Shown here: piece by piece, positions 16,704 to 34,963 of the stretch
Numbering within the stretch: position 1 is the stretch's first letter
How the letters are laid out: each line of letters begins with the position of its first letter
From: Bacillota bacterium
GTDB lineage: Bacteria > Bacillota > SHA-98 > UBA4971
Assembly (NCBI GenBank): GCA_030024085.1
Contig: JASEJE010000008.1
Location: forward strand, 1-64,000
Direction of reading: 5' to 3'
Length of the DNA stretch: 64,000 bases
The notes under the pieces: model-generated
What the model was told of the DNA's origin: nothing
What the model saw: the letters and a program-made list of their open reading frames with translations, nothing else
Databases searched by the model: none
Program-made: the position numbers and the translations under genes

Positions 16704-18299
16704 TCACGCTCCCTCGATAACCTGGCCTTCTATGCCGCCCTGGGCCTTCCTGGGCGAGGTCTCGACGGGGCCCTCCACGCCTTTCGGCGTGAAGACCTCT
16801 TTGAACTCCCTTATGGCCGACACGAGACGCGCCTCCAGGTCGTCATCGAGGTCCTTCCCTGAGGCGATGGCCTGGACGATGTCAGGGTGCGCCCTGTGCA
16901 TGTGCTCGATGAACTCGTCCCTGAAGGATGCGATGGCTTCCACGGGGATGTCGTCGAGGTGGCGGCGGACCACGGCGAATATGATAATGACCTGGTCCTC
17001 CACGGGCAGGGGCTGGTACTGCGGCTGTTTGAGCACCTCCACGATGCGCTTTCCCTTCTCCAGGCGGGCCTTCGTCTCAGGGTCGAGTTCCGTGCCGAAC
17101 TGCGCAAACTCCGCAAGCTCCCGGTACTGGGCGAGGTCGAGGCGCAGCCTTCCTGCCACCTTCTTCATGGCAGGCACCTGCGCCTCGCCTCCGACCCGCG
17201 ACACGGAGAGCCCCACGTTGACGGCGGGTCTCACCCCTGAGAAGAAGAGCTCGCTTTCGAGGTATATCTGCCCGTCGGTTATGGAGATCACGTTGGTCGG
17301 TATGTATGCCGACACGTCGCCGGCAAGCGTCTCGACGACGGGGAGGGCCGTCATCGAGCCGCCGCCGAGGTCGGGCGAGAGTTTCGCGGAGCGCTCCAGG
17401 AGTCGCGAGTGAAGGTAGAATATATCCCCGGGGAACGCCTCGCGTCCCGGCGGGCGCCTGAGGAGGAGGGATGTGGCTCTGTATGCTATGGCGTGTTTCG
17501 ATAGATCATCGTAGACGATGAGCGCGTGACGGCCGGTGTACATGAACTCCTCCGCCACGGCGCAGCCGGCGTAGGGAGCGATGTACTGAAGCGGCGCAAG
17601 CTCACTCGCGGATGCCGCCACCACGATAGTGTAGTCCATGGCTCCCTCATCCTCGAACAGCTTGACCAGCTTTGCGATGGTAGAGCGCTTCTGGCCGATC
17701 GCCACGTATACGCAGATGACATCCTTGCCTCGCTGGTTCAGGATGGTGTCGACGGCGATGGCGGTCTTTCCGGTCTGCCTGTCCCCTATGATTAGCTCCC
17801 TCTGTCCTCGCCCGATGGGGATCATGGAGTCGATGGCGAGAAGTCCAGTCTGGAGAGGTTCCGACACGGGAGTCCTCATGGCGATGCCAGGGGCCGGGTG
17901 TTCTATCGGGCGGCGGGTCGGCGAGTTTATCGGGCCTTTTTCGTCGATGGGCATTCCCAGGGCGTTCACCACCCTGCCCACCAGGGCGCCACCGACCGGC
18001 ACCTCGATGACCCGGCCAGTGCCGCGCGCGGTGTCGCCCTCTTTCACGTCCACGTCTGAACCCAGGAGCGCAACTCCGACGGTGTTCTCTTCGAGGTTGA
18101 GGATTATCCCGAACGCCCCGCTGGGGAACTCCACGAGCTCGCTCATCATGGCGCCCCGGAGTCCGGAAAGGCGGGCGATTCCGTCGCCCACCTCGAGGAC
18201 CGTGCCCCGGGTGTATATATCGAGGCCCGGGCGTATCTCGGCGAGGCGTGCTCGTATGGCTGACGCTACAGCCTCAGGCGAAAGCTCCAACAAGGTCAC
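16704..18299 (-). CDS. atpA: ATP synthase F1 alpha subunit
   Basis: 531 residues, the non-catalytic nucleotide-binding subunit of F1. It has the P-loop GDRQTGKT, the N-terminal barrel [11 protein letters not shown], and a C-terminal helical domain. The GTG start at 18299 overlaps the delta stop (GTGA). A TTG two codons later (18293) is better spaced from GGGAGA and could be used instead. It follows delta and precedes gamma. Confidence 0.96.
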
Positions 18300-18922
18300 T
18301 CTCCCGGCGGCGTTGCAGACGGCCCTGCAGGCGCTTGCGGCGTTTCGGGTGCGACGGCAGGGGATGCTTCGGCGCCTGCCGGTGCGGGGGCATCGAGTTC
18401 CTCGCGCAGCCTGCGGAGCCGACCGGCCACGCTCCCGTCGAGCACGGTGTCGCCCACCTGGACTATGAGACCTCCGAGGATTCCAGGGTCTACATCCTGC
18501 TCGATGACCACGTGGCCGCCGAGTTTCTCGGTGAGGCCTGCGCGAAGCGCTTCCATGTCGCCTGCCGAAAGCTCGACCGCGCTCGTCACGCGTGCGCGCA
18601 CCATGCCCCTGTCCTCGTCGAGGAGCCGGCGGTACGCGCTGGCCACCGCACCGACAGAGTCAACCAGGTTCTCGTCTATGAGCAGATCGACAAGGCCGAG
18701 GGTGACGGGTGAGAAGAGACCGCCCAGAACGTCAGAGACGATGGACCGCCTCTCTTCGGCGGGAAGGCCTGGGTCGGACAAGGTTCGCTTGAGAAGGGAT
18801 ACCGACGACAGCGCCTTCGTGACCTCTTCCAGCTCTCCGGCGACGGTCTGGGGGTCAAGGCGTTCCCTTGCGATGGAGAGCAGGGCCCTTGCAAGTGTGC
18901 CGGGGTCCAGCGCTGCCGTCAT
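18296..18922 (-). CDS. atpH: ATP synthase F1 delta subunit (OSCP)
   Basis: 208 residues. It joins the top of F1 to the b stalk. The N-terminal helical bundle ([11 protein letters not shown]) and the conserved C-terminal region ([21 protein letters not shown]) are present. A tail rich in Ala and Pro (about 177-208) extends beyond the usual end. It overlaps b by 4 bp at its start and alpha by 4 bp at its end. Confidence 0.92.
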
Positions 18923-19419
18923 GAGACCTTCCCTCCAGGACTTGCCCCAGCAATCTCGCGGGCGGCGCGGGACGCGAGGCGGCGAAGGCCCTCAGCATCC
19001 AGTGCGTCGTGGATGGCCTGTGAGGCAATGGCAACCGAGAGATCCACCGCCTCCCTGCGGATGTCCTGAAGAGCCCGCTCTCTCTCGCGGCCAATCTCCT
19101 CGCGGGCCCGGGCCATGATGAGCGAGGCTTCCTCCGTGGCGAGCTTGCGGGCCTCGGCGCGGATCTGGTCCGACGCGCGCCTGGCCTCATCGGTGATCCC
19201 CCTGGCCTTCTCGCGCGCCCTTGATATCTCCGACTCTATCTCCCCCCTCAGCCTCGCGGCGTGCTCCCTGTCGGCCTCAGCGGCCAAGACTCGCTCGCGG
19301 ATGAATCGCTCCCGCCGCTCCAGGTACGCCTTCACCGGACCGAAGAGGTAGCGACGAAGGACGAGGAACAGAACGATGAAATTCAGTATTTGGAAGATGT
19401 ACGTATAATCGAGACGCAT
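18919..19419 (-). CDS. atpF: ATP synthase Fo b subunit
   Basis: 166 residues. A single N-terminal membrane helix (YIFQILNFIVLFLVLRRYLF) is followed by a long charged coiled coil (about 30-150), the peripheral stator stalk. The ATG at 19419 follows a GGAGGG site. It sits between c and delta. No second b-type gene is seen. Confidence 0.93.
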   Translation of the reverse strand: MRLDYTYIFQILNFIVLFLVLRRYLFGPVKAYLERRERFIRERVLAAEADREHAARLRGEIESEISRAREKARGITDEARRASDQIRAEARKLATEEASLIMARAREEIGRERERALQDIRREAVDLSVAIASQAIHDALDAEGLRRLASRAAREIAGASPGGKVS

Positions 19420-19484
19420 GACAACCCTCCAGGTTGGCGGCTGCTTCTGGGCGATGGGCCCGTGTATGCAGGACGGATTGTAGG

Positions 19485-20134
<650 letters not shown>

Positions 20135-20476
20135 TCAGCCCGCCTTCTCGAAGATGAACCCGTAGTAGTCTCTGCCCACGCCTTCCTTGACTACGCCCAC
20201 CGTTGCCCTGACTTTCATGCCCACGGTGAGGTCCTCCGTGTTCATGTGGCCGGAGACGCGAAGGCCATTCGGGAACTCAACGATGCCGAAACCGAGCCAG
20301 GGCTTCATGTAACCCTCGGGAAGGGCGTACACCCTGGTATAGGTGAGGAGCGTGCCCTCGCCTTCGAGGGGAACCGCTTCGAACTCGCGGCCGCCGCACC
20401 TGCGGCAGACCGCCCGCGCCGGGTGGAACAGCTTTCCGCACGCCGTGCACCTGTATGCGTACATCCTGGGCTCCAT
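20135..20476 (-). CDS. DUF35 zinc-ribbon/OB-fold acyl-CoA-associated protein
   Basis: About 113 residues. A rubredoxin-like zinc ribbon with two CxxC pairs (CTACGK and CRRCGG) is followed by an OB-fold (about 45-113). DUF35 proteins bind thiolase-superfamily partners and shuttle acyl-CoA, as in archaeal thiolase/HMG-CoA synthase complexes and steroid Ltp2/ChsH2-type aldolases. The ATG at 20476 lies 7 bp after the thiolase stop, with AAAGGAGGG inside the end of the thiolase gene. This implies tight coupling and probably a complex. Confidence 0.85.
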   Translation of the reverse strand: MEPRMYAYRCTACGKLFHPARAVCRRCGGREFEAVPLEGEGTLLTYTRVYALPEGYMKPWLGFGIVEFPNGLRVSGHMNTEDLTVGMKVRATVGVVKEGVGRDYYGFIFEKAG

Positions 20477-20483
20477 GGCCTCT

Positions 20484-21671
20484 TCAGCCCTCCTTTGACA
20501 GAATCGTGGCGACCACGTTGTTTCCGAAGCCGCCGAAGTTGACGGCAAGGCCGTGCTTTGCGCCCTCCACCTGACGACCGTTCGCCTCTCCGCGGAGCTG
20601 GCGAACGATCTCGACGATCTGAGAGACGCCCGTCGCTCCGAGAGGGTGTCCCTTGGCCTTCAGCCCGCCTGATGTATTGATGGGAAGCTTGCCTCCCACG
20701 CGGGTATCGCCGCGCCGGGCAGCGAGATGGCCCTCGCCTCTCGGGAAGAGGCCGGCCTCTTCTGATATGGCTATCTCAAGTATCGTGAAGGCGTCATGCA
20801 GCTCTGCTACGTCGATATCTTCGGGTTTGAGGCCAGCCATAGCGTATGCGCGTTCGGCCGCGAGGCGCACGGCAAGCAGGTCCGTGGGGATTTCGCGCTC
20901 TGCCACGACGTGAGTGTCAGTGGCCTGGCCGATCCCGGCGATCCTCACGGGCTTCTTCGGGAAACGGTCTACAAGGTCCATGGCGCACAGCACCAGCGCG
21001 GCGGCGCCGTCGGAGACGGGGCATACGTCGTATACGCGAAGGGGCTCCGCGACGTAAGGGTTGATGACGTGGGCGTCCTCGTCCTCGATGATCGCGTGAA
21101 AGTTCGGAACAAGCTGTATGTGGGCCACCGGATTGTGCATGGCGTGCTCGTGGTTCTTCACCGCGACCATGGCGAGGTCCTTTTCTGTCACGCCGTACTT
21201 GTCCATGTAGAGTCTGGTGAACATGCCCGCAAAAGCGGGGAGCGTGAGACCGTATGCATACTCGGCGTCGGGATGAAGCATCGTGGCGACGAAGTCGGTG
21301 GCTTCCCAGCCTGTCACGACGCGCATGAGTTCGCCGCCGACTACGAGAGCCACGTCACACATGCCGCTTGCGATGGCCATGTAGCCGAGTTTCACGGCGG
21401 ACGCGCCCGATGCGGGTCCGTTCTCGATGGTCTCGGCCATCGCGGGCTGCAGGTCGAGGGTGTCTACGAGCGCTGACGCGACGCTGCTCTGGCGGTTGAG
21501 GATCCCCGCCCCCATTGACGCGACGAACACCTGATCTACGTTACCCTTTCCCGTCTTGACCCCGGCGTCGTCAAGGGCTTCCAGCGCTGCGAGCGCCAGC
21601 ACATCGACGAGGGGTATTTCCGCGCGTCCGAATTTCGTGTGCCCGACGCCCGCGATTCCAACCTTCCTCAC
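20484..21671 (-). CDS. Thiolase-fold protein lacking the nucleophilic cysteine
   Basis: 395 residues, SCP-x/archaeal thiolase branch. The fold motifs are intact: LHDAFTILE, NTSGGLKAKGHPLGATG with the catalytic His. The usual acylated Cys position reads ENGPASGAS, with Pro where CASG is expected, and the C-terminal Cys motif reads NFGGFGNN. It therefore cannot run the standard Cys-dependent thiolase reaction. Thiolase-fold aldolases of the Ltp2 type also lack these Cys residues and need a DUF35 partner, which is encoded next door. The substrate is unknown. The GTG at 21671 follows AAGGTGGGA. Confidence 0.8.
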   Translation of the reverse strand: MRKVGIAGVGHTKFGRAEIPLVDVLALAALEALDDAGVKTGKGNVDQVFVASMGAGILNRQSSVASALVDTLDLQPAMAETIENGPASGASAVKLGYMAIASGMCDVALVVGGELMRVVTGWEATDFVATMLHPDAEYAYGLTLPAFAGMFTRLYMDKYGVTEKDLAMVAVKNHEHAMHNPVAHIQLVPNFHAIIEDEDAHVINPYVAEPLRVYDVCPVSDGAAALVLCAMDLVDRFPKKPVRIAGIGQATDTHVVAEREIPTDLLAVRLAAERAYAMAGLKPEDIDVAELHDAFTILEIAISEEAGLFPRGEGHLAARRGDTRVGGKLPINTSGGLKAKGHPLGATGVSQIVEIVRQLRGEANGRQVEGAKHGLAVNFGGFGNNVVATILSKEG

Positions 21672-21687
21672 TGCGATCCCACCTTTC

Positions 21688-22362
21688 TTACCGCTTGAAG
21701 CCTGGAATCTGGGGGTACTCAGAGGGTAGAATCAGCTTTCTGGCGACTTCGAGCATCTCCGGGGATACTGGTCTGCGACCCGTGCACTTCATGCGCTTGT
21801 GCTTTTCCCACAGGGCTTTCGTAAGGACGTGTGTCGGGACGCCACCGAGTTCATGCCAGGTGTCGGGCCTGCTCTCGAGCTCGTACTCGATCATCCATCG
21901 CCGATACCCTATTGGGCTCTCGGCCACGATGAGCACTTCCTGCTGACCCAGGTAGTCCATGTGGTATTCCATCTTGGCCGCGAAGAGCTGGGCACCGATC
22001 CTGAGCCCTCGCTTGATGGCCACGGTGTGGTATGACATCCCGAGGTCTGCGTCGACCATCCTCCCATTGACGATTCCGACGATGACGCCGTCGATGGTGC
22101 CCGCGAGCACGTACTCGTTCTTGACGCGATACCGCTGGTATGCCAGGAGTTCGGCGTAGAGCCTGGCAGCCACGATGTCATAGAAGTCCCTTTCCACCGT
22201 CACAAGGGGCCTCACGGCCTCGAGGAGCCGCGGAACGTCCTCGCGACCTACCTGGTGCACGACCATCTTCTCGCCGGAAGCAAGCGTGATGTACTTGGCG
22301 GGATACGGAGGCATGTCTAACTCGGGCGGACGAAGAGACTGCTCCAGCTTGTCAACGATCAT
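21688..22362 (-). CDS. GNAT-like acyltransferase, function unknown
   Basis: 224 residues. The middle of the protein (VLAGTIDGVIVGIVNGRMVD, followed by a helix with KRGLRIGAQLFAAKMEY) resembles the GNAT core with a degenerate acyl-CoA-binding loop. The C-terminal third (WHELGGVPTHVLTKALWEKHKRM) is unfamiliar. It is the first gene of an operon with the thiolase-fold protein and DUF35, so it may act on the same acyl-CoA. The ATG at 22362 follows GGAGGATT. Confidence 0.5.
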   Translation of the reverse strand: MIVDKLEQSLRPPELDMPPYPAKYITLASGEKMVVHQVGREDVPRLLEAVRPLVTVERDFYDIVAARLYAELLAYQRYRVKNEYVLAGTIDGVIVGIVNGRMVDADLGMSYHTVAIKRGLRIGAQLFAAKMEYHMDYLGQQEVLIVAESPIGYRRWMIEYELESRPDTWHELGGVPTHVLTKALWEKHKRMKCTGRRPVSPEMLEVARKLILPSEYPQIPGFKR

Positions 22363-22718: not shown

Positions 22719-24419
22719 ATGCTGCACGAGGTCGGCATAACGGTGGAGGAGATCCTCACGCTCCCGGCGTTCGTCGGCGCAAAGGTGACGGGAGGGCGCC
22801 AGGGACTCGGCCGGGTCGTGACAAACGTCAATGTCATGGAGGTGCCAGACATCCTGGAGTGGATCAGGGAGGGAGACCTTCTTCTCACCACAGGCTACCC
22901 CATCAAGGACGATGTGGAGGCCCAGAAGACCCTCCTCCCGAGGCTTGCGGCGAAGGGGCTCGCGGCGGTGGCGTTCAAGCCCAAGCGGTACATCGATACG
23001 GTGCCTTCTCACATGGTAGAGGCTGCGGACGAGTATGGGTTGCCGCTTCTCGAGTTGCCGCCGGAGGTGAGCTTTTCCGAACTCATTTCGGCGGTGCTGG
23101 CTCAGATTGTGAATCGCCAGGCGAGGTTCGTGAAGCTGGGCATGGCTGTGCACCGCAAGTTCATGAATCTTATCGTGGAAGGCGGAGGCCTCGAGGAGAT
23201 CGCAAGCGCCCTCGCGGACCTGCTCAAGGCCACCGTGCTTGTGGAGGACTCGCTCAACCTTCGTCGAGCGTTCGCCGGTGAGAACTGGGGCAGGGGGACG
23301 GCAGACCTTGTCCGCACTATTCTGGACCGGCCCGCAGAGCTCCTTGCCACCGAGACGCTCACCGACAGCGTAGAGGGCACAGTGCTATCGTTCCAGCGCG
23401 AGCAGGTCGAGGGCGATGGTTACAGGGCCGAGGTGGTGCGGGTGCCGGTGACGAGCGCCAACGAGCAGTTCGGCTCCATCAAGGCGGTGAAGTTCGAGAG
23501 TAGCTTCACCGTGCTAGACCTTCTCAACCTCGAGCGCCTGTGCCCGCTCATATCGTTCGACATCATCCGGCACCATGGCCTCGTCCAGGTGGAACAGAAG
23601 TATCGCACCGAGTTCCTGGACCAGCTCTTCTCCACCGAGCATCCGGACGAGGAGAGGTTCATGGCGAGGGGGAAGACGTTCGGCTGGGACCTTGGCCTTG
23701 AGTATGTGGCCGTGCTTTTCGATGTGCGACCCAGCAACAAGATCGAGAACATAGCCGAGAACGAGCGAGCCTGCCAGCTTGCCAAGGCCCAGGCCACGAC
23801 CATTCTCGGCGACTTCTGCCGCAGGAACAGGCTGAAGCACATACTCACCAGCCATGCCAGCGGGATACTACTCTTCCTGCATCCAGAGGGCATTACAGGC
23901 CGGGACGCCGTTGCGTGGGTCGACGATACCATCAGGAAAGCCCGCAAGAACATCCAGCGCTGGACCGTTACGTGCGGGGTCGGTCGCCCCGGGAAGGGGG
24001 CAGACGGTCTCAGGAAGAGCTACCGTGAAGCGCGCGCCTCACTTGAGCTGGGGCGCACCATCTTCGGCGGGGGGCGCGACGTTCACTACGAGGCGCTTGG
24101 GGTGTACCGGCTCCTCCTGGGGCAGTCTGATGTCGCGGAGCAAAAGAGGTTTGCCGCAGAGGTGGTGGACCCGCTGCGGATATATGACACATCCAGGGGC
24201 GGCGAACTCCTGAAGACCCTCGAGACGTACCTCCAGACCAACGGAAATGCCAAGAGGACCGCGGCGCTTCTCTTCACTCACTATAACACCGTGCTGTACC
24301 GGCTCAACAAGATCAAGCAACTCACAGGCCTCGACCCGTATCACCCCGACCAGCGTCTGACCCTCCAGACGGCCCTGCGGCTGTTCAGGATATACGGCTC
24401 CGACGAGGCCGGGGCGTAG
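22719..24419 (+). CDS. pucR: PucR-family transcriptional regulator
   Basis: 566 residues. The N-terminal PucR-like sensory domain (about 1-130) contains VTNVNVMEVPDILEWIREGDLLLTTGYP. The central region is GGDEF-like/CdaR-type (about 290-440). The C-terminal PucR helix-turn-helix (about 495-560) contains ETYLQTNGNAKRTAALLFTH and HYNTVLYRLNKIK. Such regulators control purine, allantoin or related catabolism in response to pathway intermediates. It heads the catabolic cluster on the same strand. The ATG follows GGAGGT. Confidence 0.88.
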   Translation: MLHEVGITVEEILTLPAFVGAKVTGGRQGLGRVVTNVNVMEVPDILEWIREGDLLLTTGYPIKDDVEAQKTLLPRLAAKGLAAVAFKPKRYIDTVPSHMVEAADEYGLPLLELPPEVSFSELISAVLAQIVNRQARFVKLGMAVHRKFMNLIVEGGGLEEIASALADLLKATVLVEDSLNLRRAFAGENWGRGTADLVRTILDRPAELLATETLTDSVEGTVLSFQREQVEGDGYRAEVVRVPVTSANEQFGSIKAVKFESSFTVLDLLNLERLCPLISFDIIRHHGLVQVEQKYRTEFLDQLFSTEHPDEERFMARGKTFGWDLGLEYVAVLFDVRPSNKIENIAENERACQLAKAQATTILGDFCRRNRLKHILTSHASGILLFLHPEGITGRDAVAWVDDTIRKARKNIQRWTVTCGVGRPGKGADGLRKSYREARASLELGRTIFGGGRDVHYEALGVYRLLLGQSDVAEQKRFAAEVVDPLRIYDTSRGGELLKTLETYLQTNGNAKRTAALLFTHYNTVLYRLNKIKQLTGLDPYHPDQRLTLQTALRLFRIYGSDEAGA

Positions 24420-24548: not shown

Positions 24549-25484
24549 GTGAGCTATGTCATGGAAAGGGCGATGGACAGGAGCCCGGCCGGAGGAGCGC
24601 AAAGATACCTGGGCGCGGTTCAGGCAGGGCCGCGCTTTTGCGATCTTCTCTCCGGCGTACGGCGCTACCTGGTCCACAGCGTCTTTGCAAGGGCCATCAA
24701 CCTGTGGGACGGGCAGGAGTTCCTCACCCTGCTGCCTCTTTCGCGCGGATGCGGAGCGACCTGGGCCACAGTCGCGGTTGCGCCGGGGGAGTCGTTCCTC
24801 GACTTTGGGCTTGCGCCCGGGCTGGAGGTCGAGGCCCGCAGCGGGAGGTGGGTGAGGCTCGGGCCAGAGGTCGTCGTGGATTTCGGCTCCGCCCTGGCGT
24901 GGGAAAGCAAGCTTGCCGCGGTGGCGGTGGGTGACGTGCGCGAGACGCACCTTCGGGCGCTTCTCGACACCCTGCTCAGGGCCCCGGCGCCCTCGCCGAT
25001 TCGCGGGGCCATCGACGGCAACGGCGGGCCCGGCCGGGGCATCGTGGCTCTTCTCGACGGCCTCAGGGCGTCGGTGCAGGCCGCAGATGGCGCGCGGCTG
25101 GGAGCGGCCCTGGGTGGCCTTGTGGGCTTCGGGCCGGGCCTTACACCGAGCGGGGACGATGTGGTCGCGGGTCTTTGCCTTGCGAGAGCCGTAATGAGGA
25201 AGGCGTGCGGGAAGCCGGACGGGTTCTGGGAGGACGCCGTCCGGGAGGCGCTCGGTCGCACCCATGCTCTAAGCGGGTTTCTTGTCCGGGAGGCGCTCGG
25301 GGGGAGGAGCCACGAGTTCGCGGAGGACGCCCTCTACCATCTCCTCGCAGGTGGGCCACGCGAAACGGCTCATGGGGCAACAAGGCTTGTCAGCATCGGT
25401 GCAACCTCCGGGTTCGACATGGGGGTCGGTATCTATCTTGCCGCCGAGTGGCAGAGGAGGTATGCCTGGTGTTCGAGCGGCTGA
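24549..25484 (+). CDS. allH: DUF2877 protein, AllH-like subunit of oxamate carbamoyltransferase
   Basis: 311 residues. The conserved GFGPGLTPSGDDVVAGL motif of DUF2877 (E. coli YlbF/AllH) is present at about residues 195-212. With the next two genes it matches the AllF-AllG-AllH set described as a three-gene oxamate carbamoyltransferase, which releases oxamate and carbamoyl phosphate. The GTG at 24549 or the ATG at 24561 may be the start. It overlaps the fdrA-like gene by 16 bp. Confidence 0.75.
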   Translation: MSYVMERAMDRSPAGGAQRYLGAVQAGPRFCDLLSGVRRYLVHSVFARAINLWDGQEFLTLLPLSRGCGATWATVAVAPGESFLDFGLAPGLEVEARSGRWVRLGPEVVVDFGSALAWESKLAAVAVGDVRETHLRALLDTLLRAPAPSPIRGAIDGNGGPGRGIVALLDGLRASVQAADGARLGAALGGLVGFGPGLTPSGDDVVAGLCLARAVMRKACGKPDGFWEDAVREALGRTHALSGFLVREALGGRSHEFAEDALYHLLAGGPRETAHGATRLVSIGATSGFDMGVGIYLAAEWQRRYAWCSSG

Positions 25485-27067
25485 CGGTCAAGAAGGACGC
25501 CTACTATGACTCGGTTGTCCTGATGAGATTGACCCAGGAGGTGCAGAGGCTTGCCGGGATCACTGACGCCCTCGTGGGCATGGCGACCGACCTGAACAAG
25601 GACAGCGCGCGAGCGATGGGCTTCGCCGACCCGGAGCTGGAGGAGGCCGGGCCGAACGACCTCATCGTTGCTCTCGTGGGCGAAGAAGAGAAGATCCTCG
25701 ACGAGGCTGGGAAGGTGGTTGCAGCCAGGCTGGAGAGCAGGCCCAGGCCCAGGACGGGGGCGGAGTCTACCCGACCGGAGGCGGTCTATTCGTCGCTTTC
25801 GGAGGTTCCCATCGGCGGAGGCGGCGTCGCCGCGATCTCGGTGCCGGGGACCTATGCAGCGCGCGAGGCACGCGCAGCCCTCAGGCGGGGGCTGCACGTG
25901 TTCCTCTTCAGCGACAACGTCTCACTCGAGGACGAGCGGGTTTTGAAGGAGACGGGCCGCAGGGAGGGCCTCCTCGTCATGGGGCCTGACTGCGGCACCG
26001 CTGTCATAGGGGGCATCGGCCTGGGATTTGCAAACAAGGTGCGGCCCGGGCGCATCGGCATCGTGGCGGCCTCGGGAACGGGGTTGCAGCAGGCGCTCGC
26101 CGTCATCGACAGGCTGGGAGAGGGGATCACCCATGCCATAGGCACCGGAGGCCGCGACCTGCGCAGGGAGATCGGGGCCATAACCACGCTGATGGGGCTT
26201 GACATCCTGGAACAGGACGAGGCCACCGCCGTGAAGATGGTCATATCCAAGCCGCCCCACGAGGAGGTGCGCCGGCGGGTCATAGCCGCTCTCGAGGGCG
26301 GCAGCAAGCCCTCGGTCGTGTGTTTCATGGGCGAAGAAGGGGGCATGCCCGGGGCGGGGGCGGGGGCGGGGAAGGTGAGGTTCGCAGGAGACCTTGAGGA
26401 GGCCGCCGTCGTTGCCTGCTCGCTCGCAGGCGCGGGGGCGGGCCGGGAACTCTATCCACAGGAAGAGATAGAGGCGATCGTGCGAGGTGTTGCGGCGCGC
26501 ATGCCTGGTGCGGGCGGCGGCACAGGCCGGGTGGGGGGCCATCTCCGGGGGCTGTACGGCGGTGGTACTCTGTGCGAGGAGACTATGACGGTCCTTGCAC
26601 GGTCAGGGATAGAGGTATACTCGAACGTCGCCTGGCGGCCGGAGCTCTTGCTCGAGGACCCGGAGATGAGTCACGCTCACACATGTATCGACATGGGCGA
26701 CGACTACTTCACGAGGGGTCGGCCGCACCCGATGCTCGAGCCCGGCCTTCGCGCGCCGAGATACCTCCGTGAAGCGCGCGATCCCGATGTCGGCATTCTT
26801 CTCTTCGACGTGGTCCTCGGGTACGGGTGCCATCCAGACCCGGCGGGCGTGATGGCGGAGGCGGTCCGGGAGGCAGCGGAGATCGCCCGACGCGGAGGCC
26901 GGGCCCTCGTCCAGATCGCTGTGGTCGTCGGCACCTCCGGGGATCCGCAGGGTCTCGCAGGGCAGGAGAAAGCCCTTCGCGACGCGGGCGCAGTCGTCCT
27001 ATCATCCAATTACGCCGCTGCGAGGCTTGTGGCTTTACTACTCGGGTCAGGACGCTTCTCACGGTGA
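25469..27067 (+). CDS. fdrA: FdrA/AllF-like acyl-CoA-synthetase-superfamily protein
   Basis: About 532 residues, close to E. coli FdrA. It has two succinyl-CoA-synthetase-like Rossmann units. One has GLLVMGPDCGTAVIGGIGLGFAN with an SCS-type loop and GIVAASGTGLQQ; the second ends at IAVVVGTSGDPQGLAGQEKAL. The GTG at 25469 follows GAGGAGG with 8 nt spacing, which rejects the longer frame opening at 25175. Gly/Ala runs (GAGAGAGK, GAGGGTG) are lineage-specific. It is predicted to act with AllH and AllG on a carbamoylated intermediate. Confidence 0.78.
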   Translation: MFERLTVKKDAYYDSVVLMRLTQEVQRLAGITDALVGMATDLNKDSARAMGFADPELEEAGPNDLIVALVGEEEKILDEAGKVVAARLESRPRPRTGAESTRPEAVYSSLSEVPIGGGGVAAISVPGTYAAREARAALRRGLHVFLFSDNVSLEDERVLKETGRREGLLVMGPDCGTAVIGGIGLGFANKVRPGRIGIVAASGTGLQQALAVIDRLGEGITHAIGTGGRDLRREIGAITTLMGLDILEQDEATAVKMVISKPPHEEVRRRVIAALEGGSKPSVVCFMGEEGGMPGAGAGAGKVRFAGDLEEAAVVACSLAGAGAGRELYPQEEIEAIVRGVAARMPGAGGGTGRVGGHLRGLYGGGTLCEETMTVLARSGIEVYSNVAWRPELLLEDPEMSHAHTCIDMGDDYFTRGRPHPMLEPGLRAPRYLREARDPDVGILLFDVVLGYGCHPDPAGVMAEAVREAAEIARRGGRALVQIAVVVGTSGDPQGLAGQEKALRDAGAVVLSSNYAAARLVALLLGSGRFSR

Positions 27068-27141: not shown

Positions 27142-28551
27142 ATGGCGACGGTGAAGAACTGGCCTCCCACCGGGGCGGTCGTCAATCTCGGCAGCAGCGT
27201 GTTTGCCAGGTCCATGCGCGATCAGGGCGCAAGTGTGTACGAAGTCCTGTGGGAACCGCCCGCCCGCGGCAAGCTCGAGCTCATCGAGATCCTGGATGTC
27301 CTGGCTGGCAGAGAAGACATCGAGGAGGCCAACCGCCTTGCGCTGGAGAGATACAGCTCCGCGCAGCCGGTCCTCGTCGGCATCGGAAGGGCACGCGATG
27401 TCATCCCGGGCTTTGGCGGAAAGATGCTCCTTCATGCGGGCCCACCCATTACGTGGGACAGAATGTCAGGTCCCCTGAAGGGGGCGATCGTCGGGGCAAT
27501 CGTCTACGAAGGCTGGGCCGCATCGCCGGAGGACGCGGAGGGAATCGCGGTCGAGGGAGACGTGGAGTTCTCCCCGTGCCATGAGCACTCCGCCGTCGGC
27601 CCGATGGCGGGCGTTGTCTCCCCGTCCATGCCTGTGTTCATCATCGAGAACAGGACCGCCGGAAACAGGTCGTACTGCACTCTCAACGAGGGTCTGGGAA
27701 AGGTCCTGCGGTATGGGGCGTATAGCAGCGAGGTTCTCGACAGGCTGAGGTGGATGGCTGACGTCCTCGCGCCTGTCCTCGCGAAAGGCATCGAGCTTTC
27801 CGGAGGCATCGACCTCAAGTCCATAATCGCCCAGGCCCTACACATGGGGGACGAGGTGCACAACCGCAACAGGGCCGCGACCTCGCTCTTCATCCGCACC
27901 GTAGCGCCATACCTGCTCGACACGGGCTTCCCCCTTGCCAACATCCGTCGCGTCCTCGAGTTTATGAACGGCAACGACCACTTCTTCCTCAACCTTTCCA
28001 TGCCGGCCGCCAAAGCCATGCTGGAGGCCGCCCACGGGGTGCCGAAGAGCACCATGGTCACCGTCATGAGCAGGAACGGCACGGATTTCGGTATCAAGGT
28101 GAGCGGGCTTGGAGCCGAGTGGTTCGTTGGCCCGGCCGAGAAGGTGAAGGGCCTCTATTTCCCAGGCTTCCGTGACGAGGACGCGAACCCGGACATCGGC
28201 GACTCCTCGATAACCGAGACGGCGGGGCTGGGCGGGTTCGCCATGGCGGCGGCCATTCCAATCGTGCAGTTCGTCGGCGGCACGCCTGACGATGCCCTCG
28301 GTTTCTCCAGGAAGATGTACCGCATCACCATGACAGAGAACAGGTTCTTCAGCATACCGGTCCTGGGCTTTCGCGGGACGCCCACCGGAATCGATCTTCG
28401 AAAGGTGGTGGAGACGGGAATTCTGCCGCAGATAAACACGGGCGTCGCCCACAAGGATCCCGGGATAGGACAGGTCGGCGCGGGGCTCGTGACCCCGCCA
28501 TGGGAATGTTTCGAGAAAGCGCTTTTGGCCTTTGCCGGGAGATATGCGTGA
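27142..28551 (+). CDS. allG: DUF1116 protein, AllG-like
   Basis: 469 residues, matching E. coli YlbE/AllG in length and in the conserved HNRNRAATSLFIRTVAPYLL, ENRTAGNRSYCTLNEG and FNGNDHFFLN-like stretches. It is the third component of the predicted oxamate carbamoyltransferase. It starts 74 bp after fdrA at an ATG behind GAGGAGGG. No carbamate kinase, the usual fourth gene, is in the window. Confidence 0.75.
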   Translation: MATVKNWPPTGAVVNLGSSVFARSMRDQGASVYEVLWEPPARGKLELIEILDVLAGREDIEEANRLALERYSSAQPVLVGIGRARDVIPGFGGKMLLHAGPPITWDRMSGPLKGAIVGAIVYEGWAASPEDAEGIAVEGDVEFSPCHEHSAVGPMAGVVSPSMPVFIIENRTAGNRSYCTLNEGLGKVLRYGAYSSEVLDRLRWMADVLAPVLAKGIELSGGIDLKSIIAQALHMGDEVHNRNRAATSLFIRTVAPYLLDTGFPLANIRRVLEFMNGNDHFFLNLSMPAAKAMLEAAHGVPKSTMVTVMSRNGTDFGIKVSGLGAEWFVGPAEKVKGLYFPGFRDEDANPDIGDSSITETAGLGGFAMAAAIPIVQFVGGTPDDALGFSRKMYRITMTENRFFSIPVLGFRGTPTGIDLRKVVETGILPQINTGVAHKDPGIGQVGAGLVTPPWECFEKALLAFAGRYA

Positions 28552-28592
28552 GCCGCAGCTCCAGACTTCAGCATGTGAGGAGGGGTTTTGTG

Positions 28593-29384
28593 GTGTTGTC
28601 GTTCTGGGATAAGGTGCAGATGTACGACCTGACACAGCCGCTGAGTCATCTCACACCGCCCTGGCCGACCTACGAGCCGCTTCAGATCAAGTTCTTCAAG
28701 CGGCTGAGCCCCAACGGTGCCAACGGGCAGCTCATCACGACGTCGAATCACGTGGGAACGCATCTCGACGGCCCGCTGCATTTCTGCACCCACGGCAAGG
28801 ACATAGCGAGCCTGCCCCTTGACTACCTCGTGGGCCCGGGGGTCGTGGTGGATATCAGTGACATCGCCGAGGACTACGGGATCTACGCGTCGCTGGACAT
28901 CACCGAGCGCGTCGAGGTGCGCGAGGGGGATATCCTGGTCATCCACACCGGCTACCATCACTACGCATGGGATCAACCTGAGGCAGACGAAGTGCGGTAC
29001 ATGATCAAGCACCCAGGCCCTGCGCGGGAGTTCGCGGACTGGTGCAGGAAGATGAGGCTGAAGTGGCTCGCCGTGGACTGCGGGTCAGCCGATCACCCGA
29101 TGAACACGAAGATCCGCGAGTGGATGCCGGTGCAGGCAAGGGAGGCCGACGAGCATCTCAAGAAGAGATACGGGAAGGGTCTCGATGACTTCTTCCGCCC
29201 CGAGGATTATCAGGTCATGCACACCGCCCTCTTCCCCCACGACATAATCCACGCTGAGAACGTGGGCGGCGACATCGACAAGATCCTCAACAGGCGTCTC
29301 GTGATCGGTTGCTTCCCGTGGAGGTTCGTGGGCGGGGAGTCGTCCATCTGCCGCATCGTGGCCTTCGACACGAAGGAGGCATGA
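28593..29384 (+). CDS. Cyclase-family metal-dependent hydrolase (kynurenine formamidase-like)
   Basis: About 263 residues. The family signature HVGTHLDGPLHF carries the metal-binding His/Asp set, and LAVDCGSADHP is also typical. Relatives hydrolyse formylkynurenine, isatin or cyclic amides, so an amide ring-opening step between a hydroxylated heterocycle and an open-chain carbamoyl compound is plausible here. The GTG at 28593 lies 7 nt after GAGGAGGGG. The substrate is inferred only from context. Confidence 0.82.
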   Translation: MLSFWDKVQMYDLTQPLSHLTPPWPTYEPLQIKFFKRLSPNGANGQLITTSNHVGTHLDGPLHFCTHGKDIASLPLDYLVGPGVVVDISDIAEDYGIYASLDITERVEVREGDILVIHTGYHHYAWDQPEADEVRYMIKHPGPAREFADWCRKMRLKWLAVDCGSADHPMNTKIREWMPVQAREADEHLKKRYGKGLDDFFRPEDYQVMHTALFPHDIIHAENVGGDIDKILNRRLVIGCFPWRFVGGESSICRIVAFDTKEA

Positions 29385-29579: not shown

Positions 29580-30443
29580 ATGCTGCTACCTTTCGACTAC
29601 GTCCGGGCGCGAAGCAGGGAAGAGGCGGTGGACCTGGCGCTTCGGGCCGGGGCCGACGGCAAGTTCCTCGCCGGAGGCACTGACCTGCTGGTACGCATGC
29701 ATGACAGACAACTGCGCCCCCAGATGGTCATCGACCTCAAGGGAGTCAGCGGGTTGCAGGGAGTAAGCTGCTGCGACGGTGAGGGCCTTGTGATCGGAGC
29801 TGCTACCCCCTTGAACCGTCTGATAAGGGATGAAGCGGTGCGCTCGAAGTACGGCCTTCTTGCGGAGGCGGCGCACACCGTGGGATCCCTCCAGATCCGT
29901 AACCGTGCCTCTCTGGGCGGGAACATCAGCAACGCATCACCGGCTGCTGACACTGCTCCCGCCCTGTTGCTTTATGAAGCGGAGATCGTGACGTGGGGCG
30001 CGTCCGGGCGAAGGGAGATCCCGGTTGGCGAGTTCTTCAAGGGCCCTGGGGCCACCGCGCTCGCTGAGGGTGAGTTCGTGTCCCAGATAAGGCTCCCTGT
30101 CCTCAAGGAGCGGTCCTACGGGGTGTACCTGAAGCTCGGAAGGACGAGCGCGGTCGACCTTGCGATTGCGAGCGTGGCAGCCCTGGCGCTGGAAGGCGGC
30201 GAGGTGCGCATCGCCCTTGGCGCGGTCGCTCCGACGCCGATAAGGGTGAAGGAGGCGGAGGCCATCCTGCGAAGCCGCAAGGACGAGGGTGCCATCAGGG
30301 AAGCGGCCGCAGCGGCAAGGCGCCGCGCGGCGCCCATCAGCGACATCCGTGCAAGCAAGGAGTACCGGCTCGAGATGACGGAGGTGCTGGCAGCGCGGGC
30401 CATCGAGCAGGCGCTTGCGGGCCTCGCCGCGGGCGGCAGGTAG
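29580..30443 (+). CDS. Xanthine dehydrogenase-family FAD-binding subunit
   Basis: 287 residues, medium subunit of a molybdenum hydroxylase. It shows the FAD motifs KFLAGGTDLL and TVGSLQIRNRASLGGNI, and a C-terminal CO-dehydrogenase flavoprotein domain. It passes electrons from the iron-sulfur subunit to NAD+ or another acceptor. A strong GGAGGAAGGAGGG lies before the ATG. It opens a three-gene operon M-S-L. Confidence 0.92.
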   Translation: MLLPFDYVRARSREEAVDLALRAGADGKFLAGGTDLLVRMHDRQLRPQMVIDLKGVSGLQGVSCCDGEGLVIGAATPLNRLIRDEAVRSKYGLLAEAAHTVGSLQIRNRASLGGNISNASPAADTAPALLLYEAEIVTWGASGRREIPVGEFFKGPGATALAEGEFVSQIRLPVLKERSYGVYLKLGRTSAVDLAIASVAALALEGGEVRIALGAVAPTPIRVKEAEAILRSRKDEGAIREAAAAARRRAAPISDIRASKEYRLEMTEVLAARAIEQALAGLAAGGR

Positions 30444-30464: not shown

Positions 30465-31007
30465 ATGCTTCACAACATACGCGTCAGGGTCAACGGCGAA
30501 TGGGTCGAAGCCTGCGTGCCCTCTCACAGGAGGTTGCTGGACTTCCTTCGCGAGGACCTCGACCTCATCGGGGCCAAGGAGGGGTGCGGCGGCGGTGAGT
30601 GCGGTGCTTGCACCGTGCTGGTGAACGGCGAGCCCATCAATTCGTGCCTGGTGCTTGCGGTGGAGGCTGATGGTGCGGAGGTGCTCACGGTTGAGGGCCT
30701 TGGCGACGCGAAAGACCTCGACCCGGTGCAGGAGGCTTTCGTCCAGAATTCCGCCCTGCAGTGCGGGTATTGCATACCCGGGATGGTCATGTCCGCCAAG
30801 GCGCTGCTGATACGTAACCCCAATCCGACGCGCGACGAGGTCGTCGAGGCCATAAGCGGCAATCTGTGCCGGTGCACGGGTTATGCCCGCATCGTGGACG
30901 CCATCATGCAGGCGGCCCAGGCGGCCGACGCGGCCGGACCGGCCCCGGCTGGTCGTGCGGCGGGGCACGCGCCGGCTGCCGAAGTGTCAAGGGCGGGAGG
31001 TGAATGA
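30465..31007 (+). CDS. Xanthine dehydrogenase-family [2Fe-2S] subunit
   Basis: 180 residues. The plant-type cluster motif is CGGGECGACTVLVNG with a further Cys; the second cluster motif is CGYCIPGM followed by CRCTGY. The C-terminus carries an extra Ala/Pro-rich tail of about 25 residues. The stop overlaps the start of the large subunit (ATGA). Confidence 0.93.
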   Translation: MLHNIRVRVNGEWVEACVPSHRRLLDFLREDLDLIGAKEGCGGGECGACTVLVNGEPINSCLVLAVEADGAEVLTVEGLGDAKDLDPVQEAFVQNSALQCGYCIPGMVMSAKALLIRNPNPTRDEVVEAISGNLCRCTGYARIVDAIMQAAQAADAAGPAPAGRAAGHAPAAEVSRAGGE

Positions 31008-33340
31008 GGGTGGCAGAGAAGACGACCTACATAGGAACCGCGGTGGTACGCAGCGACGCTCTCGAGAAGGTCACCGGGGCTGCAAGATACGCGGGCGACC
31101 TCAAGTTCGACCGGATGCTGTACGTGAAGCTTCTCCGGGGCAAGTACGCCCACGCCCGCCTGGTGCGCGTGGACGCATCGAAAGCCCGGAAGCTGCCGGG
31201 AGTGAAGGCCGTCGTGACGGGCACAGACTTTCCGTACCGCATGGGCCTGTACCTCGTGGACCGCACTCCGTACGCCGTCGAGAAGGTGCGCTACTACGGC
31301 GAACCCGTCGCAGGCGTGGCAGCCGTCTCGCCCGAGGTGGCGGAGGAAGCCCTCGGTCTCATCGAGGTCGAATACGAGGAGCTGCCGCCAGTCCTCGACC
31401 TGCTGGAGGCCATAAAGCCCGGGTCGCCTCTGGTCCATCCAGAGCTTCATGAATATGAACACGTCCCGGCCATATTCCCTGTGCCTCACACTAACATCAG
31501 CAATCACTTCAAGATCCGAAAGGGCGACGTGGAGAAGGGGTTCGCTGAGGCGGACCTCATCGTGGAGGACACCTACTACGTGCCGCACATCCAGCACTCG
31601 CCGCTCGAGCCCCACGCCGCGGTCGCTCTCTATGACCGCGAGGGCAAGCTCACCATCTGGGCAAGCTCCCAGTCACCCTTTGCGATGAGAAAGATCCTGA
31701 GCCAGAGCCTCAGGTGGCCAATGAACCGGATACGCGTCATCGGCCCTTATGTGGGCGGCGGGTTCGGCGGCAAGGCTGGGCTCAACGTTGAGGCGACCCT
31801 GGTTCCTCTGGCCATGAAAGCTGTCGGCCACCCGGTGAAGCTGGTTTGCACACGGGAAGAGGAGTTCAGAGACACCTTCGTTCGCCAGGGGATGTGGTGT
31901 CGCCTGAAAACCGGCGTGAAACGAAACGGCAGGATAACCGCACAGGAGTTCGAGATGTACTGGGACGGCGGCGCCTACACTGAGTACGGGGTCAACGTGA
32001 CGAGGGCCGCAGGCTACAGCTCCGCCGGGGTGTACGACATCCCCAACATGAAGACGGACTCTTACTGCGTGTATACGAACAAGCCTGTCGGCGGTCCTTT
32101 GCGTGGCTTCGGCCACGGCGAGAACCACTGGGCCATAGAGCAGCACATGGACCAGATCGCGCACAGGCTGGGCATGGACCCCGTGGAGTTCCGAATGATC
32201 AACCTGCAGCGCGAGGGATCCACCAACGCCACCGGCCAGGTCCTCCACAACGTGGGCATCGGTAAATGCCTCGAGGAGGCCGCGAGGCTCATAGGCTGGA
32301 CGAAGGTGACGGGGCCAGGGAAGATAGAGCCCGGCGTGAAGAAGGTGCGGGCAAAGGGGATCGCGTGCATGACCAAGGCCCCGGCCATGCCGAACGACGC
32401 AGCGTCCACCGCCATCGTGAAGCTCAACGACGACGGCACCGTCGTGCTGAACATATCCGCGCAGGAGCTGGGTCAGGGCGCCTTCACGGTGCTATCGCAG
32501 ATCTGCGCAGAGGAGCTCGGTGTCCGGTACGAAGACATCAGGATATACCCCGTGGACACGGACCACGGCGCGTACGAGTGGCAGACCGTGGCAAGCCGCA
32601 TCACATACTCGTGCGGCCGCGCTGTGATGGAGGCCGCCAGGGATGCAAAGAGGCAGCTCTGCGACCACGCGTCCAGGTATTTCGGCGTGCCCGCCGGCGA
32701 CGTGGATGTCGCGGATGGCCGAGTGTTCGTGAAGGGCGACCCCTCGAGGCGCGTCCCCGTTGCTACGCTTGCCCTCGGTGCAACGCTTCCGGATTTCAGC
32801 GGCTACGGCGGCCCAATTGTTGGACGAGGCAAGTTCATACCAGAAGGAATTGTCGCCATGGATGCCGAAACAGGGCAGAGTCCCAAACCCGTCGCGAACT
32901 GGACCTACGGGGCCCAGGCCGTCGAGATCGAGCTGGACCTCGAGCTAGGCAAGATCGAAGTCAAGAAGGTGGCCGCTGTGTATGATGCAGGGCGCGTCAT
33001 CAACCCTGTGACGGCCGCCGCTCAGGTCGAAGGAGGTGTTGTGCAAGGGTTAAGCATTGGGCTCTTTGAGGAGATGAAGTTCGACGAAAGGGGCAGGCTG
33101 CTGAATCCATCGTACGTTGACTACAAGATAGCAACAGCAGCAGAGATCCCCGAGATGCTGGTGAGCTTTGTCGAGGTTCCCCAGGAGGATGGGCCGTACG
33201 GAGCGAGGGGTATTGGGGAGCATGTCATGGTGCCGACGCCGCCTGCCATCGCCAATGCGCTATTCCATGCTGCGGGCGTCCGGGTCAAGCGTCTTCCCAT
33301 GACGTCGGAGAGTGTTCGTTGGGCCCTGAAGCAAGAGTAA
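31004..33340 (+). CDS. Xanthine dehydrogenase-family molybdopterin-binding subunit
   Basis: 778 residues, the catalytic large subunit that hydroxylates a purine or other N-heterocycle. It shows the GPYVGGGFGGK molybdopterin motif, the PLRGFGHGENHW loop, the GQG motif in QELGQGAFT, and the active-site Glu in GARGIGEHVMVP. Substrate specificity cannot be set from sequence; the neighbouring xanthine/uracil permease suggests a purine. The ATG at 31004 follows GGGAGGTGA. Confidence 0.92.
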   Translation: MRVAEKTTYIGTAVVRSDALEKVTGAARYAGDLKFDRMLYVKLLRGKYAHARLVRVDASKARKLPGVKAVVTGTDFPYRMGLYLVDRTPYAVEKVRYYGEPVAGVAAVSPEVAEEALGLIEVEYEELPPVLDLLEAIKPGSPLVHPELHEYEHVPAIFPVPHTNISNHFKIRKGDVEKGFAEADLIVEDTYYVPHIQHSPLEPHAAVALYDREGKLTIWASSQSPFAMRKILSQSLRWPMNRIRVIGPYVGGGFGGKAGLNVEATLVPLAMKAVGHPVKLVCTREEEFRDTFVRQGMWCRLKTGVKRNGRITAQEFEMYWDGGAYTEYGVNVTRAAGYSSAGVYDIPNMKTDSYCVYTNKPVGGPLRGFGHGENHWAIEQHMDQIAHRLGMDPVEFRMINLQREGSTNATGQVLHNVGIGKCLEEAARLIGWTKVTGPGKIEPGVKKVRAKGIACMTKAPAMPNDAASTAIVKLNDDGTVVLNISAQELGQGAFTVLSQICAEELGVRYEDIRIYPVDTDHGAYEWQTVASRITYSCGRAVMEAARDAKRQLCDHASRYFGVPAGDVDVADGRVFVKGDPSRRVPVATLALGATLPDFSGYGGPIVGRGKFIPEGIVAMDAETGQSPKPVANWTYGAQAVEIELDLELGKIEVKKVAAVYDAGRVINPVTAAAQVEGGVVQGLSIGLFEEMKFDERGRLLNPSYVDYKIATAAEIPEMLVSFVEVPQEDGPYGARGIGEHVMVPTPPAIANALFHAAGVRVKRLPMTSESVRWALKQE

Positions 33341-33709: not shown

Positions 33710-34963
33710 GTGGCAAGCACCCAGCCGATTGTGAAGGCGAAAGTCAGAGGGCCCATAAGGCCCGGAGACCCCCTGCCTTTTCCTCAGCTTCTAGTTCTAG
33801 GCATTCAGCACACGTTCACCATGTTCGGCGCGACGGTCCTGGTGCCGCTGCTCACAGGGCTTGACGTGAGCGTCGCCCTCTTCACGGCGGGCATAGGGAC
33901 CCTGTGGTTCCATCTGGTGACAAAACGGAGGGTTCCGATATTCCTCGGGTCGTCGTTTGCTTTCATCGCTCCTGTCGCGCTTGTGATCAAGGAGATGGGG
34001 ATCCCTGCGGCTCAGGGCGGGATCATTGTGGCAGGTCTGCTCTACTGTGTCCTCGCAGTGATCATATACTTTGCAGGTCCGAGATTCATGGAATCCCTGC
34101 TCCCACCGGTTGTCACAGGGCCGATCATCATGGTCATAGGGCTCAACCTCGCGCCGGTCGCCATCGGAAGCGCGAGCAAGAACTGGATAATCGCGCTCAT
34201 AGTGCTGGCAACCGTCGCTATCGTGAACCTTTACGTGAAGGGGTTCCTGCGGCTACTGCCGGTCATATCCGGGATAGTCGTGGGGTACATCGTCAGCCTG
34301 ATATGGGGCATTGTGGACACGGCGCCCGTGGTCCAGGCGGCGTGGGTCGGGATGCCTCACTTCACATGGCCGGTATTTGACGCGGCGGCCATTGGGCTCA
34401 TAGCCCCGGTGGCAGTAGCCACCATGGTGGAGCACGTTGGGGATGTGCTGGCCGTCGGGGCCACGGTCGAGGATGACTTCGTCAAGGATCCGGGACTGCA
34501 CCGGACGCTTATCGGAGACGGCATAGGGACGTCCCTCGCCGGCCTGTTCGGCGGCCCTGCGAATACCACCTACTCTGAGAACACCGGGGTGCTCGCTCTG
34601 ACGAGGGTATGGAAGCCCGAGGTGATGAGGGTGGCAGCAGTGCTCGCCATCCTGCTTGCATTCATCGGCAAGCTTGGCGCAGCGATAAGGACCATACCAG
34701 AGCCGGTGATCGGCGGCATCTCAATCGTGCTCTTCGGAATGATCGCCGCGATCGGCGTGAGGACCGTCGTGGAGAACCAGGTCGACATGAAGCAGTCGAG
34801 GAACCTGCTCATCGCCAGCGTCATGCTGGTGATCGGCATCGGCGGCGCGATGATAAGGATCTGGGGGAACCTGCAGTTCGGTGGGATCGGCCTTGCTGCC
34901 ATCATTGGCATCATCCTGAACCAGCTCCTGCCGAGAGAGGCCGGAAAGGGCCAGGAAGGCTAA
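33710..34963 (+). CDS. Uracil-xanthine permease (NCS2 family)
   Basis: 417 residues, about 12-14 membrane helices, nucleobase/cation symporter. It shows the conserved GLxQHxF-type start LGIQHTFTMFGATVLVP, the substrate-region VATMVEHVGDVLAVG, and the GxxNTTYSENTGVLALT signature. It lies just downstream of the molybdenum hydroxylase genes and probably imports their substrate. The GTG start follows GGGAGGAGAG. Confidence 0.9.
   Translation: MASTQPIVKAKVRGPIRPGDPLPFPQLLVLGIQHTFTMFGATVLVPLLTGLDVSVALFTAGIGTLWFHLVTKRRVPIFLGSSFAFIAPVALVIKEMGIPAAQGGIIVAGLLYCVLAVIIYFAGPRFMESLLPPVVTGPIIMVIGLNLAPVAIGSASKNWIIALIVLATVAIVNLYVKGFLRLLPVISGIVVGYIVSLIWGIVDTAPVVQAAWVGMPHFTWPVFDAAAIGLIAPVAVATMVEHVGDVLAVGATVEDDFVKDPGLHRTLIGDGIGTSLAGLFGGPANTTYSENTGVLALTRVWKPEVMRVAAVLAILLAFIGKLGAAIRTIPEPVIGGISIVLFGMIAAIGVRTVVENQVDMKQSRNLLIASVMLVIGIGGAMIRIWGNLQFGGIGLAAIIGIILNQLLPREAGKGQEG

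Follow-up and report, generated by a model that had tools for sequence, protein, structure and literature searches.

The genes described here lie on the minus strand of a 64,000-nucleotide stretch of contig JASEJE010000008.1 from a Bacillota bacterium (hereafter the window) and form a trio encoding a predicted GNAT-fold protein (G), a thiolase-fold protein without catalytic cysteines (T) and a DUF35 protein (D) (Table 1). The best NCBIfam match of T is the thiolase domain protein PRK06064 at 384.7 bits, under the cut-off of 420, and the library models nearest to it bear the names 'thiolase domain-containing protein' and 'acetyl-CoA acetyltransferase'; a search of its own genome at E 1e-8 returned T alone. 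G gave no match in Pfam or NCBIfam, and PDB sequences searched with a G profile gave none up to E 1, but its AlphaFold2 model (predicted local distance difference test score, pLDDT, 91.7) has the GNAT fold, with a best Z of 14.5 to 8gxj_A (root-mean-square deviation, rmsd, 3.0; 165 residues aligned) and Foldseek support at E 4.9e-8. An earlier sequence-only reading of this DNA had placed a GNAT-like gene at the start of the operon and a DUF35 gene 7 bp past the T stop, and both placements hold. With moderate confidence, the trio is read here as the final part of an oxidative uracil fermentation under anaerobic conditions, in which T and D would decarboxylate malonyl-CoA.

T was compared with thiolases of known structure and with its own family in an alignment of 84 rows, namely the window, three same-genus loci and 80 loci of a contig scan (L003 and L016 belong to one genome). 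Pro86 of T aligns to the catalytic cysteine of 7yvy, 6esq and zebrafish SCP2 thiolase, and the surrounding motif (E/S)NGPASG is present in 84/84 loci with proline at this position in all, as had been recognised in the window from ENGPASG. The sequence-only reading was equally right that GHPLGATG is intact, the GHP histidine motif being kept in 84/84 loci, but it looked for the second cysteine in the wrong place. The NFGGFGN stretch (NFGGFGNN, invariant in 84/84 loci) has no cysteine before its glycines in any aligned Cys-bearing relative. Instead, the second site is HDCF in 27 of the 28 relatives used for the tree (YNAF in L180), all of which have the nucleophile cysteine, and reads HDAF in T (83/84 loci; HDPF in one), with Ala294 at the cysteine position and His292 and His342 retained. 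On this alignment, T has lost both catalytic cysteines, whose places are taken by Pro86 and Ala294. As the motifs are fixed across 84 loci, neither chance nor sequencing error accounts for the loss, while HDAF alone is no proof of a Cys-less enzyme, because 7yvy has HDAF and yet a nucleophile cysteine. In total, 97 positions of T are near-invariant over the 84 rows, including His292, His342 and Asn378. A shifted nucleophile was considered at C217, which is invariant in 84/84 loci and lies in the CP-SDGA loop; it was ruled out, as the same loop cysteine occurs in several Cys-bearing thiolases.

The 80 scanned T loci (80 of at least 340 relative-encoding stretches among 591 candidate stretches) are 61-93 % identical to T of the window, and their hosts are Clostridia, Coriobacteria, Spirochaetes, Acidobacteria, Bipolaricaulota, Verrucomicrobia/Lentisphaerae and others. 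Clostridium magnum (L021), Anaerocolumna aminovalerica (L052) and Acididesulfobacillus acetoxydans (L025) are among the trio carriers. Within the genus, T was present in three of five other genomes (92-94 % identity), and in a sample of 299 genomes of the phylum the T family reached 706-748 bits in six genomes, the next protein scoring 345.8 bits. A tree of 52 rows, from which the distant rows L009, L012, L013, L014 and L015 and three near-copies had been left out, placed the 24 T rows in a single clade (100/100) apart from the 28 Cys-bearing rows. The T clade was recovered, again at 100/100, in a second tree to which the five distant rows were added and from which six near-copies were omitted. 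In this second tree T branches among Cys-bearing rows and apart from the three distant rows that also lack the nucleophile cysteine (L012, L014, L015); as far as sequences tell, and with long-branch warnings for both trees, which were built without true Ltp2 and Sal sequences, this points to a cysteine loss in T independent of that in the other Cys-less rows. The outcome that the sequence-only reading had regarded as contrary to its proposal, a place among Cys-dependent thiolases together with a cysteine shifted in the alignment, was thus obtained in its first half, whereas a shifted cysteine was not found. Because both cysteine losses are fixed across Clostridia, Spirochaetes, Coriobacteria, Acidobacteria and other phyla, the T family is taken to be a real enzyme class. 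One of the distant rows, L012 (G075:C84:100244-101311), comes from the same phylum as the window and has glycine at the nucleophile site and a Sal-like YDCY; it lies far from T in the tree.

G, T and D are one unit. G stands directly before T in 80/84 loci (median gap 3 nucleotides) and D directly after it in 82/84 (median gap 8 nucleotides). Contig ends cut both loci without D and, among the four that lack G, L054. At L072 the G frame is broken, and this G was omitted from the G alignment (A1). Beside 11 other thiolase-family loci (L005-L015, flanks of about 1.5 kb) G was absent. At L041 and L087, from genomes in which no G was found, the genes beside T gave no clear pathway.

The best functional clue, on which the sequence-only reading was silent, is the operon that neighbours the trio in divergent orientation (Table 1).

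Table 1. Genes of the trio and of the divergent operon in the window
Feature	Coordinates	Strand	Basis
D, DUF35 partner (zf-ChsH2 + OB_ChsH2_C), 113 aa	20135..20476	-	Pfam; ATG at 20476, 7 nt past the T stop
T, Cys-less thiolase-fold protein, 395 aa	20484..21671	-	Pfam Thiolase_N + Thiolase_C_1
G, predicted GNAT-fold protein, 224 aa, opens the trio	21688..22362	-	fold of the AlphaFold2 model
PucR-type regulator, divergent from the trio	22719..24419	+	family search
AllH-like transcarbamylase subunit (PF11392)	24549..25484	+	family search
AllF/FdrA-like subunit; start uncertain, open reading frame begins at 25175	25466..27067	+	likeness to the FdrA-like protein of L021 only
AllG-like subunit	27142..28551	+	PF06545, E 4.2e-104
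PF04199 'cyclase'-family hydrolase, putative barbiturase-like ring opener; true start probably after 28500	28500..29384	+	family search
XDH-like FAD subunit	29580..30443	+	family search
XDH-like 2Fe-2S subunit	30465..31007	+	55 % identical to the L021 subunit
XDH-like molybdenum subunit, putative uracil hydroxylase	31004..33340	+	family search
NCS2 permease	33710..34963	+	best model uracil permease, 393 bits, under the cut-off of 477

Genes of these families recur around the trio. The flanks of the 80 scanned loci (at most 6 kb per side, many loci being fragments of metagenome-assembled genomes) contained AllF or AllG in 47 cases, PF04199 in 46, any molybdenum-hydroxylase subunit in 34, NCS2 in 14 and carbamate kinase in nine, and 57 loci had at least one pathway gene. 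In the window's own genome, carbamate kinase is encoded over cut-off on a different contig. When whole genomes were searched, AllG was found, also in non-adjacent positions, in 43 of 50 trio genomes versus 43 of the 299 genomes of the phylum sample (G081 and G232 are one genome present in both sets, and six of the 43 AllG-positive sample genomes carry T). G occurred in eight of the 299 sample genomes, all eight of them AllG-positive (P 1e-7, not corrected for kinship). A 71-row AllG tree groups the rows neighboured by PF04199 or T, with 7 label changes versus 20.8 for shuffled labels and 0/500 shuffles as low. A same-genus genome without T retains an AllG fragment interrupted by an in-frame stop (L106, G002:C36:2592-2801); this remnant suggests a recent loss of the system.

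Several features of these operons bear on the substrate. NCS2 permeases exceed the uracil-permease cut-off at L021 (Clostridium magnum, 642.7 versus 477) and L092, while those of L029 and the window fall under it. At L072, PF04199 and T stand together with two genes that match under cut-off, one resembling cytosine deaminase (275.9 bits versus 438) and one resembling uridine phosphorylase (277.8 versus 280.3), and L102, from the genome of the trio L066, combines AllF, AllG, AFOR, a cytosine-deaminase-like gene, PF04199 and a uridine-phosphorylase-like gene. Three bacteria with small genomes have an AFOR-family gene within or close to their pyrimidine-type clusters (L102:6978-8873, L101 and L072:2-1225), stretches in which XDH-like genes were not found; its product may be a tungsten enzyme that performs the same oxidation as the XDH-like hydroxylase. 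AtzD-type barbiturase (PF09663) was found in 0/54 genomes, but control genomes likewise gave no match. This context suggests that pyrimidines are broken down by an anaerobic, oxidative route in which a transcarbamylase step yields energy.

The alternative that survives best is that the operon serves another cyclic ureide, such as a purine product or hydantoin converted to oxalurate, and that oxamate or a different acid amide is the substrate of the trio. The allantoin cluster of E. coli resembles the present system in grouping fdrA, ylbE and ylbF with carbamate kinase, and E. coli AllFGH cleaves oxalurate according to PMC11326118; the XDH-like genes and the PucR regulator also fit such a pathway. 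However, E. coli AllFGH adjoins allB, C, D and E, whereas here AllD, the one allantoin gene searched for, was over cut-off in 0/63 genomes (weaker matches in 29/63, E. coli control positive), and for this reason an allantoin/oxalurate pathway is considered improbable for the AllFGH homologue. Among the 21 features inspected around the E. coli cluster, none is named as a hydrolase, molybdenum hydroxylase or malonyl gene comparable to those described here. Together with the uracil-type permease, the uridine-phosphorylase-like and cytosine-deaminase-like genes and the malonate decarboxylase of a sister-genus operon described below, the AllD result makes another ureide unlikely. In addition, thiolase-fold enzymes are not known to decarboxylate oxalyl-CoA.

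What T might do is indicated by T-negative operons of this kind. Two genomes of the sister genus (G009 and G011) have a PF04199 protein, molybdenum subunit and permease that share 80-89 % identity with those of the window, and AllF/G/H that share 41-76 %. In G009 (L097), PF04199 and AllF/G/H lie beside MdcA (884 bits, cut-off 789), an MdcD-type acyl carrier protein (ACP), a carboxyltransferase and a Na+-pump OAD_beta, and the same genes were detected by BLAST in G011 (L098). mdcA was over cut-off in 4/4 AllG-positive sister-genus genomes versus 0/6 genomes of the window's own genus. An M42 peptidase-like gene, which might encode an amidase, lies between the Mdc genes and PF04199/AllFGH (L097:216-5998). 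The operon of G185 contains a class III CoA-transferase, a nitrilase-type amidase, a nitroreductase, MmdA-like, OAD_gamma, a biotin carrier and OAD_beta. In G309 a G homologue is accompanied by MmdA-like, OAD_gamma-type, biotin-carrier and OAD_beta genes, with T and D not found in 16 kb, and BLAST revealed the same set in G332, where the gamma subunit was not annotated. The G homologues of these two genomes are 40-42 % identical to G of the window and keep 31/52 core-invariant residues, including H112, E148 and S149. Within AllF/G-PF04199-XDH operons at L140 (10177-14693) and L141 (10179-14766), a G homologue adjoins MmdA-type Na+ decarboxylase genes, and neither T nor a DUF35 gene lies nearby.

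T-negative operons, taken as PF04199 beside AllF/G, were counted from BLASTP matches (E 1e-8) over contig stretches 4 to 17 kb long. They came from 19 genomes (G009, G011, G012, G331, G174, G185, G212, G023, G247, G054, G060, G139, G143, G258, G308, G309, G332, G025 and G048), of which G247 was counted via the adjoining stretch L150 and G012, whose contig is cut and whose mdcA lies on another contig, was scored as a miss. L106, the trio-genome loci L100-L104 and L142, and the AllG-positive T-negative genomes G069, G157 (both of the genus of G023) and G010 stood outside this count, and L100-L104 and L142 also outside the comparison loci. A gene of the Mdc, Mmd, CoA-transferase, amidase or G kind was found nearby in 14/19 genomes, compared to 2/20 AllF/G loci without PF04199, where the malonyl-type gene was a CoA-transferase only (Fisher P 7e-5, not corrected for kinship). 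Decarboxylase genes proper accounted for 6/19 (G009, G011, G185, G309, G332 and, in part, G212, which has a partial set of OAD_beta and biotin carrier); the rest of the 14 had an amidase with or without CoA-transferase (e.g. G054, G139). In the 80 T-locus flanks, Mdc or Mmd decarboxylase genes and CoA-transferase were found in 0/80 and an amidase in 3/80. Relatives without T carry decarboxylases unrelated to T for the proposed malonyl-CoA step, and operons have either an amidase with CoA-transferase and decarboxylase, or G with a decarboxylase, or G with T and D. In the simplest reading of this exchange, G would replace the amidase and CoA-transferase, and T-D would replace the decarboxylase.

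The roles might also be reversed, G being the decarboxylase while T-D forms the malonyl thioester from malonamate. GNAT-fold malonyl-CoA decarboxylases exist, and the fold of G and the usual co-occurrence of the three genes would both suit such an assignment. We consider it quite unlikely, as in G309 and G332 the G homologue is accompanied by an MmdA-type decarboxylase, with T and D not found nearby, so that a second decarboxylase would be redundant, and as a thiol-less T is poorly suited to acyl transfer. Since G309 and G332 suggest that G pairs with a decarboxylase, T rather than G would be the decarboxylating part.

From the gene content, the invariant residue losses, the predicted folds and the decarboxylases of operons of the same kind, we infer the following reactions, substrates and complex formation. 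The NCS2 permease would import uracil, which the XDH-like hydroxylase would convert to barbiturate and the PF04199 hydrolase to ureidomalonate, the C3 analogue of oxalurate. Because ureidomalonate is one carbon longer than oxalurate and otherwise analogous, the AllFGH-like enzyme may be expected to release malonamate and carbamoyl phosphate from it with phosphate, and carbamate kinase would use carbamoyl phosphate to form ATP. In the fifth step G, as a GNAT working in reverse, would convert malonamate and CoA to malonyl-CoA and NH3, and in the sixth T and D would convert malonyl-CoA to acetyl-CoA and CO2 without a covalent acyl-enzyme. It is tentatively proposed, at somewhat less than even confidence, that G, T and D act as one enzyme coupling the conversion of malonamate and CoA to acetyl-CoA, CO2 and NH3, with ATP gained from carbamoyl phosphate and acetyl-CoA.

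A number of observations weigh against the proposed pathway. On its own, the amide-to-thioester step assigned to the GNAT would run uphill and would need decarboxylation to pull it. Three genomes (G098, G128 and G355) carry T and D with no G found genome-wide, 7/50 trio genomes yielded no AllG, and 23/80 loci have no pathway gene in the flank, although these are partly short contigs. At L061, L066 and L085 the trio lies beside glutamate dehydrogenase in place of the uracil-type operon, in L061 and L066 together with NfnB-like genes. Genes similar to mdcA exist elsewhere in three trio genomes, over cut-off in C. magnum (one of 50 other trio genomes) and at about 720 bits in two. The G homologues of G309 and G332 change 21/52 core-invariant residues, including E132, H134, E159 and Y160, and 5/19 T-negative operons have no such malonyl gene nearby. 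The MmdA matches lie under cut-off (755 and 884.9 versus 998.8), for which reason a methylmalonyl substrate, derived from thymine, is possible. Finally, the thiolase-like protein TbSLP has very low activity with malonyl-CoA and CtSal has none, as reported in PMC12329534.

To relate T to known enzymes, its model (pLDDT 84.9) was compared with solved structures. The closest were the archaeal DUF35-type thiolases of Methanothermococcus (6esq_A, Z 56.2, rmsd 1.9, 379 residues aligned) and Pyrococcus (7yvy_B, Z 52.8, rmsd 1.7, 355 aligned), which share the fold over the full length and the GHP histidine with T; 6esq has a DUF35 partner, as T does. Both retain the nucleophile cysteine where T has proline, while the second site is HDCF in 6esq and, like in T, HDAF in 7yvy. 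PhlC-type acyltransferases, SCP2 thiolases, MucABC, BbsB and ST0096 of Sulfolobus tokodaii (4yzo, Z 50.6) followed in the ranking. ST0096, a thiolase-like protein that ranks second among the PDB sequence matches of T (38 % identical), is also without both cysteines and has a C-terminal GYGN resembling the GFGN of T, but serine rather than proline at the nucleophile site and HDMA at the second. TbSLP (5ab4-5ab7, Z 45.9, 24 % identical) has the thiolase fold but a YDCF motif. In PMC12329534 it is said to lack the cysteine of SCP2 thiolases, and slow decarboxylation of malonyl-CoA is reported for it.

In the proposed mechanism, His292 and His342 of T would hold the thioester and stabilise the enolate, following a logic similar to that of KSQ domains, whereas the thiols for acyl transfer are gone. 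KSQ domains of polyketide synthases are thiolase-superfamily decarboxylases that act on an ACP-bound malonyl substrate and whose nucleophile cysteine is replaced by glutamine; T departs from this hallmark in having proline. That T has no catalytic activity and serves G as a scaffold or CoA-binding regulator would agree with the absence of both thiols, but is improbable in view of the 97 near-invariant positions with both histidines and Asn378 among them and of the three genomes that carry T and D with no G found.

The sequence-only reading had suggested a C-C lyase acting on an acyl-CoA, by analogy with steroid-degrading Ltp2/ChsH2 aldolases. Its broad idea stands, as decarboxylation is one such reaction, but an Ltp2/Sal-like retro-aldolase does not fit, since the catalytic residues are replaced. 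Ltp2-ChsH2 (6ok1_C, Z 45.6, rmsd 2.3, 360 aligned) and Sal-Shy (9myr_A, Z 44.4, rmsd 2.8, 367 aligned) do resemble T in having a thiolase fold without nucleophile cysteine and a DUF35 partner. PMC12329534 places the catalytic tyrosine of TcLtp2 in YDHF and the tyrosine and cysteine of CtSal in YDCY. The CtSal residues correspond to His292 and Ala294 of T, and the tyrosine of YD(H/C) is histidine in 84/84 rows. The second tyrosine of the Ltp2 pair is likewise without a counterpart: T of the window has no tyrosine after residue 276, and because 60/84 rows have none after HDAF, no conserved equivalent of TcLtp2 Tyr344 is expected, although the position was not aligned residue by residue to 6ok1. 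As T is, in addition, nearer to archaeal thiolases in sequence and fold, branches away from the three other Cys-less rows including the YDCY-bearing L012 (on long branches), and has neither enoyl-CoA hydratase nor hydroxyacyl-CoA dehydrogenase among its annotated neighbours, retro-aldol or other cleavage of a beta-hydroxyacyl-CoA by T-D is very improbable.

If the decarboxylation of malonyl-CoA by T-D holds true, T would be a dedicated decarboxylase of thiolase type, not ketosynthase type, that works without a catalytic cysteine and with a DUF35 partner. To our knowledge, no earlier decarboxylase of this description is known. No paper on such a uracil pathway or on such a Cys-less thiolase was found among open-licence PMC full texts, a collection that leaves most subscription papers and all preprints outside. 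Just past D, on the same strand of the window (16704-19862), lie genes that by eye resemble those for ATP synthase subunits.

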